A stretch of 25,272 nucleotides of DNA from a virus: positions 1-25,272 of IMG/VR virus record IMGVR_UViG_3300042691_042930. One strand, written 5' to 3'. The translations under genes and the position numbers were made by a program. Below are positions 12,884 to 25,272 of the stretch, one piece after another (position 1 is the first letter of the stretch; each line of letters begins with the position of its first letter). The notes under the pieces are model-generated. The model was given only the letters and a program-made list of their open reading frames with translations, was not told where the DNA came from and searched no databases.

Positions 12884-14650
12884 ATGCCAGCATATCCAAA
12901 TCAAACACCAGATCTAGGAAAATTGAACTTTAATGAAATAAAGGATAGTTTAAAGAGCTATCTTAAAAATCAAGATTCATTGAAGGATTTCAATTTCGAG
13001 GGATCAATAATGCAGACATTATTGAATGTATTGGCATATAATACGTACTATTATGCATTTTATGCCAATATGGTGTCGAATGAAGTCTATCTGGATTCTG
13101 CCCAAAGAACTGATTCTGTCGTATCACTGACAAAACCTCTTGGTTATTTTGTTCCTTTCAGATCATCCGCGAAAGCCACCGTCAATGTTTTTGGTTTATT
13201 GGATGATATTCCAGAATTTGCACAGTTTTATGGAAAAAATCCAGATGGATTAATTTATTCTTTTTATACATTAAAATCATACCAGCAGTTTGACAGTGAT
13301 GCGGAGAACGTCGAGATCTATGAAGGAAAAACAATTAAAGTTGATTTTGATGTAACTAATTCATTTGATGAGGTATATCAAAGATTTTTCATCGCTGAGC
13401 CAGAAATAGATATTAGAAGTCTAAAGGTAAAAGTTCAAACAAATGGACAACTTGACCCAAATTCAAATAAAGATCTATGGATTTTAGCCGATGATCTCGG
13501 AAATGAAACAATAGCAAATCAAAATATTTATTATCTTGAACGTGGAAATAATGGATTATATGTTTTATTTGGAAAGACAAATTCACTTGGTAGATCCGTT
13601 AATGCTACTGCTGATCGAATCTATATAAGTTATTTAACTTCAAGTGGAAAAGTTGCAAATGATATTGTTGAATATTCATTCGTATCTCCAACTAGTATAG
13701 CGGGAAATATTTCAATTGGTTTGGTAGAAAAATCCGTTGGTGGATTGAATGATCCAAATCTTGATTTTGTAAAATTCGTAGCCCCAAAAACATTCTCATC
13801 ACAAAACAGAGCAGTTACAAAGGATGATATTAAAGCGTTAGTATCTCCTTTTTTTACTTCTCAGTCTGAGTATAATGTTTTTGGTGGTGAAGAAATATTT
13901 CCCCAGATGTATGGTAGAGTTTTCTTTACAGCTGATTTAGATCCCAATAATCCAGCCCAATCGCAACAAATCCAACAAATTACAGATGCAATACGTTCTA
14001 AATGTGTCGTCACTGTGATTCCAGAATTTGTTCAATCTAAATTTATCAACATAGAACAAAGAGTTAGTTTTTCTTTAACACCAACAAAATTTTTCAATGA
14101 AAGTGAAAAAAAGCAACTAAGAAATTCTATAAAAAATATATTAAATTCTGAATTTGATACACAAGGCTCTTATAATTATTCTTTTAATTCCGAAGATGCA
14201 GCTAATAGAATAAAATTAATTTATAAAGATGTACTAATTGAACCAATTGATTTTTCTATATTTTATAGAAATACATTTTTTGGTGGTGGTACAATATTAG
14301 TGGATTTAGAGAATGAGCTTGATGTACCATTTTTTACAAATGTAGATATTACTGAAGATTTTATAGGTGAAAGTGGATCATTGATAAAATTAGTATTATA
14401 CGTAAATGCAAATCAAAATTTGTTTAGTTTTATACAATTAAAAACTTTTGAAAAACAATCTAATGGTTCGTATTCTGAAATTCAATCATCATATGGTCGT
14501 GTAAATATAAAAAGAGGAATAATAGAAATAAACAATTCTAGAAATACTTCTGAGCCAATAACAATAGCTGTAAATTTTAAGAATAAATATTTTGTATCCA
14601 ATTTAAATAATAAAATTAGATTTAGAACAACATCTGTAGAATACAAGTAA
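12884..14650 (+). CDS. 6: gp6-like baseplate wedge protein (J family)
   Basis: This 588-residue protein opens with the clear gp6 pattern: FNEIKDSLKSYLKNQDSLKD, FNFEGSIMQTLLNVLAYNTY, FYANMVSNEVYLDSAQRTDS and VSLTKPLGYFVPFRSSAKA. This helical region contacts the hub. The middle holds the ring-forming J-like core, including NRAVTKDDIKALVSPFF and YGRVFFTADLDP. In T4 two gp6 copies per wedge form the inner iris of the baseplate that opens on contraction. T4 gp6 has 660 residues, so this is slightly short. A purine-rich AAGAAGAGA site lies 6-14 bases before the ATG. It follows the giant hub by 18 bases and is followed after one base by the next gene. Confidence 0.88.
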   Translation: MPAYPNQTPDLGKLNFNEIKDSLKSYLKNQDSLKDFNFEGSIMQTLLNVLAYNTYYYAFYANMVSNEVYLDSAQRTDSVVSLTKPLGYFVPFRSSAKATVNVFGLLDDIPEFAQFYGKNPDGLIYSFYTLKSYQQFDSDAENVEIYEGKTIKVDFDVTNSFDEVYQRFFIAEPEIDIRSLKVKVQTNGQLDPNSNKDLWILADDLGNETIANQNIYYLERGNNGLYVLFGKTNSLGRSVNATADRIYISYLTSSGKVANDIVEYSFVSPTSIAGNISIGLVEKSVGGLNDPNLDFVKFVAPKTFSSQNRAVTKDDIKALVSPFFTSQSEYNVFGGEEIFPQMYGRVFFTADLDPNNPAQSQQIQQITDAIRSKCVVTVIPEFVQSKFINIEQRVSFSLTPTKFFNESEKKQLRNSIKNILNSEFDTQGSYNYSFNSEDAANRIKLIYKDVLIEPIDFSIFYRNTFFGGGTILVDLENELDVPFFTNVDITEDFIGESGSLIKLVLYVNANQNLFSFIQLKTFEKQSNGSYSEIQSSYGRVNIKRGIIEINNSRNTSEPITIAVNFKNKYFVSNLNNKIRFRTTSVEYK

Positions 14651-14651
14651 A

Positions 14652-15836
14652 ATGATATCTGGTTATTTAAACAACAGTATAAAAAATATAAATCATACTT
14701 TAATTGATTTTCTTGATTCTATTGGTGATGAATATAATGAAACTTTTTCAGAAAGATTAGCATTAGAAATTGATATAAATCAATCATCTTTTGATCAAAC
14801 AACTTGTGGGTCAAATTATGATATATCAAGATTAATACCTTCTTGGGTTGTAGCGGAAAAAAATGCAAGAGAACAAAACGGAGAAACTAATGTAATTTCT
14901 GTTTTTGATTTTCTTCAAAAATATTACGATTGGCTTTATTGTGATAATGAAAGTGGTGCTCAGTATTCTCTTGCTAATAATTTTTTAGACATGATCGATG
15001 TTGAAAAAACAAGAGAAGAATTTTTAAAAAGAATTTATAGTGTGTATTTTAATTCATTTCCATATGATAAAATCAGGAACGATGGAACAATAATTTTTGA
15101 TCTTCAAAGAGCTAGAGATTTCATAGTTGGTATAAAGAAAAATCTTCATGGAAGAAAAACAAATATAGAAGCAATAAATTATTTTTTTACTAGATTATTC
15201 ACAGTATCTGAAGAAGATGTTCTTGTATATTATCCAAAAGTTGATATTATTCGATTAAATGGTGGTATATTTAATAATGAATATTTTAATTTTATTTCTG
15301 CTACTGGAAATTATTATAATACGAGTACCCTTGGTTCTGGTTTGAATATCTCAAGATTTCAGGATAATGATTGGTTTCACGATTGGTCTTATTTAATTTA
15401 TCTTGGAACAACACAAGAAAATACAAACTTAAGAGATGCATATGTTAAATCTTTACATCCAGCTGGATTGCGTCTTATATTTGGAAAACAGCTCAGTGAC
15501 TATCAAGGTCCGGGAATTAGTGATGACGATAGTAGAGTGTGTGAATATCCACTGCTTAAAAACTATGCTCCTTATTCTATGACTATGGAATATGCACAAA
15601 TTGGTGTTCATTATGGTATAACATTATATGGAATAACTGGATGTTCTGGTTGTGATGGATCGTATAGAACACCACCAGCTACTGGATTTACCGGACCTGT
15701 TTACGTATTCCCAACGTGGACTGGAACAATAAGCGGATCTAAATTTTTTGATATAAATATCAGTAGTTTTATAGAATTGTGCTATACACCTGGTTTCACA
15801 AGTCCAAACGAAAATAAATCCTGTAGTAACTGTTAA
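14652..15836 (+). CDS. Baseplate wedge protein in the gp7 position, gpI-like
   Basis: This 394-residue protein is not confidently recognised by sequence. It has a helical first half with VFDFLQKYYDWLY (about 95-107) and the segment LQRARDFIVGIKKNLHGRKTN followed by AINYFFTRLF (about 156-188). This resembles the 'short helix, basic turn, G/KT, helix' pattern of P2-type gpI and of proteins that follow gp6 in T4-like phages. In T4 gp7 pairs with two gp6 copies in each wedge, and the gene lies between 6 and 8, as here. T4 gp7 has 1032 residues, so this would be a minimal version. The C-terminal 80 residues are Gly/Thr-rich with CSGC (331-334), Cys380-ish and a terminal CSNC (391-394). No strong ribosome-binding site is visible, and the one-base gap from gp6 suggests coupling. 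Confidence 0.55.
   Translation: MISGYLNNSIKNINHTLIDFLDSIGDEYNETFSERLALEIDINQSSFDQTTCGSNYDISRLIPSWVVAEKNAREQNGETNVISVFDFLQKYYDWLYCDNESGAQYSLANNFLDMIDVEKTREEFLKRIYSVYFNSFPYDKIRNDGTIIFDLQRARDFIVGIKKNLHGRKTNIEAINYFFTRLFTVSEEDVLVYYPKVDIIRLNGGIFNNEYFNFISATGNYYNTSTLGSGLNISRFQDNDWFHDWSYLIYLGTTQENTNLRDAYVKSLHPAGLRLIFGKQLSDYQGPGISDDDSRVCEYPLLKNYAPYSMTMEYAQIGVHYGITLYGITGCSGCDGSYRTPPATGFTGPVYVFPTWTGTISGSKFFDINISSFIELCYTPGFTSPNENKSCSNC
15752..15759 (+). promoter_or_regulatory. Candidate internal late promoter (TATAAATA)
   Basis: An exact match to the T4 late-promoter consensus lies in sense orientation near the end of the preceding gene, 81 bases upstream of the gp8-like start. It encodes part of that protein (Ile-Asn-Ile), so it may be coincidental in AT-rich coding sequence. 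Confidence 0.25.
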
Positions 15837-15839
15837 AAC

Positions 15840-17579
15840 ATGCTAAACAAATCAAATATATTAAAGGACTATCTAAACAATATTGGTACAAAAAACCAAT
15901 TGTTTTTCCTCTTTGGCCATATGCCAACACCAAGCACAAGTAATACATCACAAAGTGCAATTGATTCATGGAAAAATTCTGAGATGTCTTATAAAGTTGG
16001 CAGAAGGGACTCGATTGCAGTAGTTCCTGCTAATATATGGAAAAGTGGATATGTTTATGATTATTGGAAAAGTAAACAAATAAATACTGGAAATTACTAC
16101 GCCCTAAACAAAACAAATAATATAGTTTATCTTTGTATTTCAAATAATTCATTAGATAGAAAAGATCTATCTATGAGCAGTGCCTCAACACAGATACCAA
16201 ATCATGAATATGGTATCAAAAAATATAAAGATGGTTATTCGTGGCTTGCCTTATACAGGATAACCACTGATATGAATAGATTTTTGAATAATACATGGAT
16301 GCCAGTTATTTCTTTTGACGACTACAGGCAAACAAATATTTCAAAATACAATTCTGCTGAAAAATTTTGCCCACAATCACAAGCGTCTACTGTTTACTGT
16401 GGAATATACTTCAAAGAAAATACTCAAATAGAAACTACTTCTGGAACATTTACAACATATGAAAAGGGAACTTTATATACATCAATTAGAACCGAGTGCC
16501 AAAAATGTTATTATCTATTTGAAAATGATGATAGATATGAAACTTTAGCATATGTTTCTTCAACTGATGTTTTAAATTCAATAACAATAAAAGATAAATT
16601 TGATCAAATTGAAGAGTTAGTCTCAACTAATCAAATTTCAACATCATCACCATATTATTCATTGTATCAAATGTCAAAAAATGGACTAGAAGATGGGGCG
16701 ATTGTATCTGCGATGTTGGATTTAACTGGATTTGATACTGCAAATCTTGTTGTGGATACACCAAATCCAGAAATCACAGTATCAAGTTCTTCTGGTTCTG
16801 GTGCAAAATTAATATTTACAACATATGTAAATTTAGATGGTGAAAATATCATAAACGGTGTTTCTCTCATAACAAATGGAAGAAACTATAAAAATCCAGT
16901 ATTGTCTATAAACTATTCAATATTTCCATACCTTACATCCACACAAGTTGATGAGTTGATTTCTTCAATTGAAGTTAATGTAGATAATCTAGATGGATTA
17001 AATTTCGACCCTATTTCTGCGCTATCCGCAGAAAACATAATGTTTGATATACGTGTTGAAACAAATGTTTTAAAACAACAAAATCTTTCTATTCCAAGAA
17101 AAATAAATTTTTATGCATTGGTTGAAAATCCAATTGAAATTCTTGATGATACAATTGAAATAGTTGCTGGATCTCAATATGGAAAAGATGATACTTACAT
17201 TGAAAAAACAACAGCAAAGGTAAAATTAACTGCAACCCCAACAATATTGGATCCAGAGGAAGAATTGTCAGGGACACTGACATTAGTTGATGGTCGAGTT
17301 GTTCAAAATGTAAATGTACTTGGTGTTGAAGTTGCTGGGGCAACAACTTCAGCAGAATTAAATAATTTCAACTATGTTGATATCGATGAAATATCAACTG
17401 TAACCATAGATTCCGTAGTATATACTGTTGACGAAGTAGTATATAAGCCATCATTTAAACAATATTCTGGTAAAATTGCACAAACAAAAACTTTTACTAA
17501 TGATTTAAAATTTGGAAATGCAAATACGGATTCTGAAAATACAAGAATATTTCGCATAAATATTGTAAAGGGATTTTAA
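15840..17579 (+). CDS. 8: gp8-like baseplate wedge protein
   Basis: This 579-residue protein has an N-terminal third that follows T4 gp8: YLNNIGTKNQLFFLFGHMP, a DSWKN and GRRDSIAVVPANIWKSGYVY segment (T4: LPSMLDAVIPRRDW), then NNIVYLCISNNS and GYSWLALYRI with LNNTWMPV (T4: GDGYVWEYLFEI...IVVPW). gp8 forms the outer wedge in T4. Four Cys at 177, 187, 220 and 223 (the last two as ECQKC) could form a metal site. T4 gp8 has 334 residues. The extra C-terminal half is beta-rich and acidic, with unknown role. It starts three bases after the previous stop, with no clear ribosome-binding site. Its stop is followed immediately by the next ATG. Confidence 0.75.
   Translation: MLNKSNILKDYLNNIGTKNQLFFLFGHMPTPSTSNTSQSAIDSWKNSEMSYKVGRRDSIAVVPANIWKSGYVYDYWKSKQINTGNYYALNKTNNIVYLCISNNSLDRKDLSMSSASTQIPNHEYGIKKYKDGYSWLALYRITTDMNRFLNNTWMPVISFDDYRQTNISKYNSAEKFCPQSQASTVYCGIYFKENTQIETTSGTFTTYEKGTLYTSIRTECQKCYYLFENDDRYETLAYVSSTDVLNSITIKDKFDQIEELVSTNQISTSSPYYSLYQMSKNGLEDGAIVSAMLDLTGFDTANLVVDTPNPEITVSSSSGSGAKLIFTTYVNLDGENIINGVSLITNGRNYKNPVLSINYSIFPYLTSTQVDELISSIEVNVDNLDGLNFDPISALSAENIMFDIRVETNVLKQQNLSIPRKINFYALVENPIEILDDTIEIVAGSQYGKDDTYIEKTTAKVKLTATPTILDPEEELSGTLTLVDGRVVQNVNVLGVEVAGATTSAELNNFNYVDIDEISTVTIDSVVYTVDEVVYKPSFKQYSGKIAQTKTFTNDLKFGNANTDSENTRIFRINIVKGF
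17555..17562 (+). promoter_or_regulatory. Candidate late promoter CATAAATA ahead of the fibre region
   Basis: CATAAATA lies 17 bases upstream of the ATG at 17580, with an AAAGGGA ribosome-binding site between them. It is one base from the T4 late consensus. It is inside the last codons of the gp8-like gene, as is common for compact phage genomes. It could provide separate late expression of the fibre-region genes. Confidence 0.35.
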
Positions 17580-23352: not shown

Positions 23353-25272
23353 ATGATAAATAAAACATTAACAGGATTATCAATATTAGATTATAATGCG
23401 GCAACTGATTTACCATCAGCGATTAATGATACTTTTGTCACAAAATCGGAAACTAATTTAACAATATCATTATCATTATTAAATTCATTAACTGGAATAA
23501 GTTTGAATTCTGGCAACATAGCAAATCATAAACTATTCATTAGAATTTATAATTCAAATCTTACCACAATCTTAGACGAAAAAATATTTGATCTTGATGA
23601 TACTAATTTATTATCATCATTTCTTTATGTAAATATTAAATCTTTAACAGATTTATATGATAATGAAAAATTATTTTTATCTATGACAAATAGTGAACTA
23701 AGAAAATTATATAAAAGTTATAAAATAGTCTTTAGGGTATATACAGGAACACTGACAAATCAAACTTCTATATTAAATACAGATATAGTTCAAGATTTAA
23801 ATTTTGTGGTAAATACATTTCAAAGTGGACCATACGATGTTGCATTCGAACACTTGGATTTATGTAGTCCATCCGATTTTACGACTTCGGAAAGAATTGC
23901 AATATTTGAAAAAAATCCAATGATCATGGGAGTTGAGTCTGTTCGTTCGTTTTATTCTGAAAATTGCCAAGATAAAATGCCTCTCATTGTTTATTGTCAT
24001 GGAAATAATCAGTCAACGGAAGGATTTGATAGCTTTTTATCTCAATTTGCATCCTATGGATATTTTGGTATAAGTGTCAATTTGGATCAGGGTGGTGATG
24101 TAGTCCCAAATACATATTATGTTTTAAACTTAATCGATCATTTTAAGAAAAATATATTGAAAATAAAATCTGGTTTTTTTGACAATAAAATAGATTTTAA
24201 TAAGATAATATTGTGTGGATTAAGTCGCGGTGGACTTGCCATTGAAACAATTGCTACTAGATTGAAACGAAAAAATTCTACGTTTTCACAGTTTAATGGA
24301 AATAATCTAACTATAGAATATAATGATTTAAAATGTCTCGTTTCTATTGGTGATGTAAATCTTACTGGAGTTGGTGTAGATGGAATAGTTGCAAATGAAA
24401 GTGTATTTAGTAATGCAATATCCCCCACAGAATCCGAATTATCATATTTTTCCACAGATCATGATATACCATTAGTTAAAATTTGTGGATTTAATGACAA
24501 TCAAACTCTTAATGTTATGTTTCCGCATACTCTATTGTATCCAGGATTTTGCTATTCAAACAGATTAAATTACTTGGATAAATATGTTTTATTATCTTAT
24601 GGGGCACACAATGATTTAATAGACCACACAACAAGATCTGAAGAAAAAGCTTTTAGTACAGGTGCAAATCAGTTAAATGTGAATAATCTTAATTTAAATT
24701 CGTTTAGACATCCACTCAATGAATTTATCTCTACTTTATTGTATTTTTTTGCAACCAACATTTTTGATTCCAATAAATTAAAAAAATTAAGATTCATAAC
24801 ACCAAAAAAGCAAAGAATAAATTATTTAACAAAAGATGATACTCTAGATAGCGTATATCATCTATTTTTTCCTAAAAATGACGATATTCTTTATCATATT
24901 GATAATTTTTCTGGAATAACTTCAAGTCTGGCAGGAATTACTGGATTTACATTCAATAGCCCATTACCTTTTACATACGATTATTGTGTGGATTCTACTG
25001 TCTATGATCAAACTTCAGTTGTTCCAGTGAATCAATTATATTTGGATTTACTTAAAGAGTTGAAAGTAATAGGTGGAAAACACAATAGTATCTTTTTTAT
25101 TGACACAACTGACAATGATACATTCAATGGTGTATTGTTTAATTCATATAGATCTTTATTTGTTCCAATAGAATCAAATATATCATTTGGCTATACATTC
25201 AATAATATAATTACTTTGTCTGAAAACAACTATATTGGTCTAAAAGCATCTCAAGTTTACATGTATGGGACA
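23353..25272 (+). CDS. Tail-associated alpha/beta-hydrolase (putative esterase), 3' end outside window
   Basis: An uninterrupted frame of 640 codons runs from the ATG to the end of the window without a stop. Residues about 1-200 are beta-rich and unrecognised. An alpha/beta-hydrolase domain follows at about 205-480: LIVYCHGNNQSTEGF (His216-Gly217 oxyanion turn), FASYGYFGISVN, the nucleophile elbow GLSRGG with Ser291, KICGFNDN with candidate acid Asp382, and YGAHNDLID with candidate base His419. Spacing and order fit the Ser-Asp-His triad of dienelactone hydrolase / esterase-like families. Another ~160 or more residues continue beyond. There is no signal peptide, and the gene follows fibre genes by four bases, so a virion component that deacylates host surface polymers is the best inference; the substrate cannot be read from sequence. 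No ribosome-binding site is obvious. Confidence 0.72.
   Translation, partial: MINKTLTGLSILDYNAATDLPSAINDTFVTKSETNLTISLSLLNSLTGISLNSGNIANHKLFIRIYNSNLTTILDEKIFDLDDTNLLSSFLYVNIKSLTDLYDNEKLFLSMTNSELRKLYKSYKIVFRVYTGTLTNQTSILNTDIVQDLNFVVNTFQSGPYDVAFEHLDLCSPSDFTTSERIAIFEKNPMIMGVESVRSFYSENCQDKMPLIVYCHGNNQSTEGFDSFLSQFASYGYFGISVNLDQGGDVVPNTYYVLNLIDHFKKNILKIKSGFFDNKIDFNKIILCGLSRGGLAIETIATRLKRKNSTFSQFNGNNLTIEYNDLKCLVSIGDVNLTGVGVDGIVANESVFSNAISPTESELSYFSTDHDIPLVKICGFNDNQTLNVMFPHTLLYPGFCYSNRLNYLDKYVLLSYGAHNDLIDHTTRSEEKAFSTGANQLNVNNLNLNSFRHPLNEFISTLLYFFATNIFDSNKLKKLRFITPKKQRINYLTKDDTLDSVYHLFFPKNDDILYHIDNFSGITSSLAGITGFTFNSPLPFTYDYCVDSTVYDQTSVVPVNQLYLDLLKELKVIGGKHNSIFFIDTTDNDTFNGVLFNSYRSLFVPIESNISFGYTFNNIITLSENNYIGLKASQVYMYGT

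Follow-up and report, generated by a model that had tools for sequence, protein, structure and literature searches.

The window analysed here is an IMG/VR virus record of 25,272 bases, and its last open reading frame (ORF) encodes a protein that almost certainly has an alpha/beta-hydrolase fold. We consider it fairly probable that this protein is an active serine esterase, nearest to the PETase/cutinase, chlorophyllase and PAF-acetylhydrolase group, which is built into a T4-like phage tail and acts on the host surface at adsorption. A PETase/chlorophyllase-type enzyme conserved across an uncultured T4-like clade together with a co-travelling partner would broaden how T4-type tails acquire catalysis, and the hydrolase family would provide new ester-cleaving enzymes.

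The window starts with the end of an ssDNA-binding protein gene, followed on the minus strand by genes for a tape-measure-like protein, the hub, the tail tube and head closure. The plus strand then carries genes for a tube-cap-like protein, a wedge subunit, a 1876-aa tail protein, gp6, a wedge-like protein and several large proteins, with the hydrolase ORF in last place (Table 1). In PHROG comparisons, gp6, other wedge, hub, tube and head-closure genes were found together, confirming the T4-type tail context that the preliminary description of this DNA had assumed. A tblastn search with gp6 matched 1257 of 50,697 phage records, all at less than 60% identity, and the best matches among sequenced phages were cyanophages and Caulobacter phage Cr30. 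With gp6 certain and every match below 60%, we place the phage among the T4-like viruses, at a long distance from those sequenced. The 1876-aa tail protein had zero tblastn matches in the 50,697 phage records. Against genome contigs, gp6 matched one MAG contig named Erysipelotrichaceae with 30% identity, too distant to assign a host. No Rfam families or tRNAs were found in the window, and the T4-type late-promoter word TATAAATA is not enriched there (3 observed versus 6.4 expected). A further contig, IMGVR_UViG_3300010354_011363 (L002:8267-9538), ends inside a gp6 gene whose product is 98% identical to that of the window, so that the two records represent one phage lineage.

Table 1. Features of the window and of related or comparable loci
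Feature	Location	Strand	Remarks
Tail protein, 1876 aa	7235-12865		phrog_350
gp6 baseplate wedge subunit	12884..14650	+	phrog_219, E 1.3e-80 (PHROG)
Baseplate-wedge-like protein	14652..15836	+	phrog_17744; fused to partner homologue in G052
Small gene, 166 aa	20684..21184	+	sister copy of the partner's N-terminal domain
Partner gene, 719 aa	21189..23348	+	about 560 aa behind an N-terminal copy of the small-gene domain
Alpha/beta-hydrolase tail-region protein	23353..25272	+	640 codons, ATG start, 3' end outside the window
N-terminal extension, aa 1-159	23353..23829	+	NDTF motif and conservation throughout the family; without known relative
Alpha/beta-hydrolase domain, aa 160-486	23830..24810	+	
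Oxyanion-type HG, H216-G217	23998..24003	+	kept in 8/10
Nucleophile S291 in CGLSRGG	24223..24225	+	invariant 9/9
Acid D382 in GFNDN	24496..24498	+	invariant 9/9
H419 in GAHND	24607..24609	+	invariant 9/9
C-terminal extension, start only	24811..25272	+	complete only in relatives
G052 fusion, 1057 aa	L102:4769-7942		first ~435 residues match the wedge-like 14652-15836 product; C-terminal half is a partner homologue
S-RIM14 protein, 573 aa	L111:34939-36660		YHYH (Pfam 1.4e-39) plus C-terminal alpha/beta-hydrolase-like domain; annotated hypothetical
YHYH plus alpha/beta-hydrolase-like proteins of T4-like cyanophages	L112:5110-6882, L113:5101-6864		adjoin baseplate genes; annotated hypothetical
ACG-2014h protein, 974 aa	L114:4288-7212		subtilase (Pfam 1.5e-20) joined to hydrolase-like domain; tail-fibre-like gene alongside

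The assignment to the alpha/beta-hydrolases, first made by inspection of the ORF, held up in profile and structure comparisons. A family profile built from eight homologues matched PDB entries for alpha/beta-hydrolase/PETase (2.2e-9; 9k0h/9hl5), PAF-acetylhydrolase (3.9e-6) and lipase (4.6e-5), and the window protein alone matched solved alpha/beta-hydrolases at 5.7e-4. The window protein falls below every curated Pfam cut-off, scoring 16.1 bits with Chlorophyllase (PF07224) against a gathering cut-off of 26. Chlorophyllase reached E 0.01 or better in five of the eight members, of which only L094 was seen above curated cut-offs (37.2 versus 26 bits for Chlorophyllase and 26.7 versus 20 for PAF-AH_p_II). 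One of the eight matched phrog_789, 'esterase/lipase', in PHROGs (7.9e-5).

Structure prediction had been proposed as a check on the placement of the catalytic residues, and here a homologue was modelled in place of the window protein, whose own single-sequence AlphaFold2 model reached a pLDDT of 33 and was unused. The model of L012, a 46% identical homologue, was built on ten sequences and has a mean pLDDT of 61.7. For most of the core from residue 198 to residue 332 the values are 70-91, and around the acid and the histidine they are about 56-60. Its S293, D389 and H426 come after strands ending at 292, 386 and 422, which is the order of the fold, and we infer the triad geometry from these positions in the model. 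Foldseek comparison of this model with the PDB returned 890 chains at E 0.001 or better, headed by PETases, cutinases and a chlorophyllase. VIA-align gave Z 20.9 with GlacPETase (233 residues, 3.2 A) and Z 20.3 with wheat chlorophyllase (245 residues, 3.5 A). The phage protein therefore shares the core fold and the Ser-Asp-His order with the PETase/cutinase, chlorophyllase and PAF-acetylhydrolase group (9hl5, 8x6v, 8fjd, 3d59), and the nucleophile-elbow region of the solved structures aligns with the phage family by sequence profile. Unlike that group, it adds about 160 N-terminal and about 245 C-terminal residues and has 91 residues between nucleophile and acid; its identity to the solved structures is 12-17%. 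In a viral structure library, several minor tail or tailspike proteins align with the homologue model over about 155 columns. A C-terminal sandwich domain shared with these proteins was considered and dropped, the matched part of the model being unreported.

The proposed triad of Ser291 (in GLSRGG), Asp382 and His419 had been picked from one sequence. We found these residues as described, and all three are invariant in the nine sequences, the window included, that span their positions, so that independent data now back the triad. Only 18 of the 295 columns between 192 and 486 are invariant. Within this range, one Asp out of 17 (D382) and one His out of 7 (H419) are invariant, as are three Ser out of 26, S291 among them; the chance of three random columns all being invariant is about 2e-4. 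Mean column identity in the hydrolase alignment is about 41%. The nucleophile motif is GxSxG in eight of nine sequences, and L011 has GLSMSG, with Ser replacing a Gly. The oxyanion motif noted earlier fared less evenly: HG at 216-217 is retained in eight of ten sequences and is replaced by PG in L093 and by RA in L097, variants that speak against a uniform oxyanion hole across the family. Taken together, the invariant triad, the PDB profile matches and the homologue model at Z of about 20 indicate a true alpha/beta-hydrolase, which is probably catalytically active.

The hydrolase ORF runs to the window end with its stop codon absent. Both extensions mentioned in the preliminary description are real. 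Full-length relatives of the close clade are 752-796 aa long, and the window protein is accordingly short of roughly 115-120 C-terminal residues. In relatives, the C-terminal extension measures about 245 aa counted from a conserved ID.F and is strand-rich in the homologue model; it has no sequence relative in PDB or Pfam. Profiles of the N-terminal extension, the C-terminal extension and the partner gave nothing convincing against PDB. The N-terminal extension is a candidate virion-attachment region. A crude hydropathy check revealed no signal-like N-terminus, in agreement with the earlier claim that a signal peptide is absent.

We then collected homologues of the hydrolase. No relative came up when viral contigs were scanned with the window protein, with its domain or with the partner alone, and relatives were therefore reached through gp6 and then through alignments. 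Full-length homologues with 33-49% identity are present in four of nine gp6-found records. Homologues were also found in five of 50 further records, which were chosen from 72 and include two (L018 and L020) found through the hydrolase itself. The family set comprises ten sequences (G002, G003, G004, G005, G010, G011, G013, G019, G052 and the window), and all nine homologues come from uncultured phage records. The G011 sequence stops before the nucleophile, G010 lacks the N-terminus, and the G052 homologue is 818 aa long. No match to the window protein, L014 or L097 was found by tblastn in the 50,697 phage records (E 0.01-0.1), and L094, searched in the same records with E up to 1, gave five weak matches (E 0.1-0.6). 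A genome-contig scan with the family alignment (A1) found no relative. Plasmid matches of L014 in Rhizobium, Agrobacterium and Curtobacterium (30-32% identity over 98-115 aa, E about 1e-3) were taken as general hydrolase similarity. The dN/dS values of the hydrolase are 0.28 (G003/G010) and 0.23 (G002/G005), and that of a third pair is 0.38 with dS near-saturated, showing that the protein is constrained by purifying selection.

The gene upstream of the hydrolase, which we call the partner, ends 4 bases before the hydrolase ORF on the same strand. The preliminary description had placed the hydrolase directly after fibre genes. The adjacency stands; the partner has no family or database hit, and only its first ~155 aa are paralogous to the product of the small gene (51-54% identity), so that the word 'fibre' reflects position. 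The remaining residues of the partner look propeller-like by eye. Of the ten records, G010 starts within the hydrolase gene; in the other nine, where the upstream side is visible, the hydrolase gene stands a few bases behind a partner homologue of the same orientation, which in G052 is part of a fusion. A scan with a partner alignment identified seven loci, every one in a hydrolase-carrying record. Where the record continues in the close clade, the hydrolase is followed by a collagen-like/Cys-rich gene, about 960 aa long where complete. At L093:1-1486 and L092:1-1485 (minus strand), this gene encodes a protein in which a GPQG stretch resembles collagen and GACC repeats are rich in Cys, and in several relatives two or three related genes stand in tandem behind it.

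We examined 80 gp6-bearing loci, 43 of which have an ORF like the small gene. At the junction after this ORF, the partner and the hydrolase are found in seven loci (eight with the window), a collagen-like gene follows directly in 26 loci of distant relatives, and 10 loci end or turn earlier. The pair is present in 8/8 close loci and absent from 26/26 distant junctions, some of which are near-duplicates (such as L037-L039). This presence at some junctions and absence at others suggests that the partner and the hydrolase were inserted here as a pair. In most relatives lacking the hydrolase, a single longer gene, of about 370-500 aa, takes the place of the tandem of small gene and partner. In G052, the gene order is rearranged: the partner homologue is fused to a wedge-like protein, the hydrolase again comes next after the fusion, and a homologue of 15840-17579 follows. 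This covalent joining of the partner to a wedge-like protein is the best evidence for virion mounting, short of proof.

The mounting on the tail proposed earlier thus finds support, and that support is gene order; on this basis, we regard the hydrolase as likely to be a virion component, and we infer that it would be attached to the tail through the partner. An active esterase outside the particle, made late, set free by lysis or retained in the cell, with envelope debris or nearby cells as its target, would agree with a hydrolase N-terminus that has no recognised anchor domain. However, we judge this unlikely, given the 4-base, same-strand spacing among structural genes, the travelling of hydrolase and partner together in both gene orders, the fusion to a wedge protein in G052 and the lack of any export signal in the hydropathy check. 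More tentatively, the partner and hydrolase genes could constitute an enzyme module that can be transplanted onto T4-type baseplates. The partner would then be an adaptor that displays the hydrolase at the attachment surface and whose N-terminal plug is exchanged between lineages, being a fibre-region domain copy in the clade of the window and a baseplate-wedge protein in G052. If true, uncultured T4-like phages could use such modules to acquire and relocate catalytic tail parts while leaving the enzyme as it is.

For a tail-borne esterase, we envisage that the N- and C-terminal flanks and the upstream partner would hold the hydrolase on the baseplate or fibre apparatus, that the Ser291-His419-Asp382 triad would attack an ester via a covalent acyl-enzyme, and that the mounted enzyme would take off acyl groups or break ester linkages at the surface of the host as the phage adsorbs. 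We lean slightly towards an acyl ester of the envelope as the substrate; our guess at the likeliest candidates is the O-acyl groups that envelope or capsule glycans carry, or else lipid of the envelope. It is doubtful that such a tail-borne enzyme acts instead on a polyester, wax or storage lipid in the extracellular surroundings of the host. The nearest solved structures, those of PET hydrolases, cutinases, chlorophyllase and PAF-acetylhydrolase, point that way, but these families take their names from substrates used in the laboratory or found in cells, a fold match is silent on substrate, and sequence identity is 12-17%. Finally, an inactive protein using the alpha/beta-hydrolase fold as a receptor-binding domain is very unlikely, since, although non-catalytic relatives of alpha/beta-hydrolases exist and the family shows both the loss of the oxyanion HG in two of ten members and the Ser-for-Gly change in L011, the catalytic residues are invariant at a mean column identity of about 41%, and no other Asp or His in the domain is conserved throughout.

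We compared the hydrolase with known tail-borne esterases. SGNH/GDSL enzymes have their nucleophile in a GDS(L) block, which is absent from the hydrolase: S291 lies in GLSRGG, and the fold search leads to PETase-type structures. In passages of PMC11126041, the phage tail esterases described are SGNH enzymes carried by tailspikes, from phages whose hosts are in culture; those of Aristophanes (gp41), nACB2 (gp166) and Vi-type phages are tail-borne and strip acyl groups from host glycan, as is proposed here. Predicted triacylglycerol hydrolases attached to virions are mentioned for Cellulophaga phages in a passage of PMC5380687 citing Pires et al. 2016. The three family proteins searched at E 0.01-0.1 had no match in the 50,697 records, and none of the five weak matches of the fourth (E up to 1) is to Cellulophaga, in a collection that may or may not include those Cellulophaga phage genomes. 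A cyanophage 'carboxylesterase', T4-GC438, was set aside, its length of 135-429 bp in passages of PMC3037559 being far shorter than the hydrolase gene. Our searches of the open-licence PMC literature turned up no report of a T4-type tail with an alpha/beta-hydrolase.

A match in the viral structure library led us to the cyanophage protein A0A1D7SKQ1 (S-RIM14), which we take, from its length, to be the 573-aa gene product. Its C-terminal domain has LLHGAGG, GSSNGG, NTND and AGHN motifs by eye, with Abhydrolase_2 matched at merely 0.017, and its gene has a giant structural gene on one side and a gp9-like gene on the other. This hydrolase-like domain was matched in 65 of the 50,697 records, all named Synechococcus phage or cyanophage, and in three of four inspected (S-RIM14, S-SSM4 and ACG-2014d) it shares this placement, beside baseplate genes. 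The earlier remark that an alpha/beta-hydrolase is unusual on a T4-type tail was therefore overstated. The Ser, Asp and His are kept in four aligned copies of the cyanophage domain. As in the window, the S-RIM14, S-SSM4 and ACG-2014d proteins place an alpha/beta-hydrolase-like domain in a T4-like baseplate block, but kinship is not detectable (hhalign probability of 3% between the S-RIM14 protein and the window family, A4), and the cyanophage domain, unlike the window hydrolase, is fused to YHYH. YHYH is predicted to be a tail-associated metal-dependent hydrolase in passages of PMC7824862, which make no mention of an alpha/beta-hydrolase fused to it. Because the two families are not detectably related, alpha/beta-hydrolases may have entered T4-type tails more than once. 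The ACG-2014h protein has a subtilase instead of YHYH, together with other neighbours, and it also shows a sub-threshold copper-binding match.
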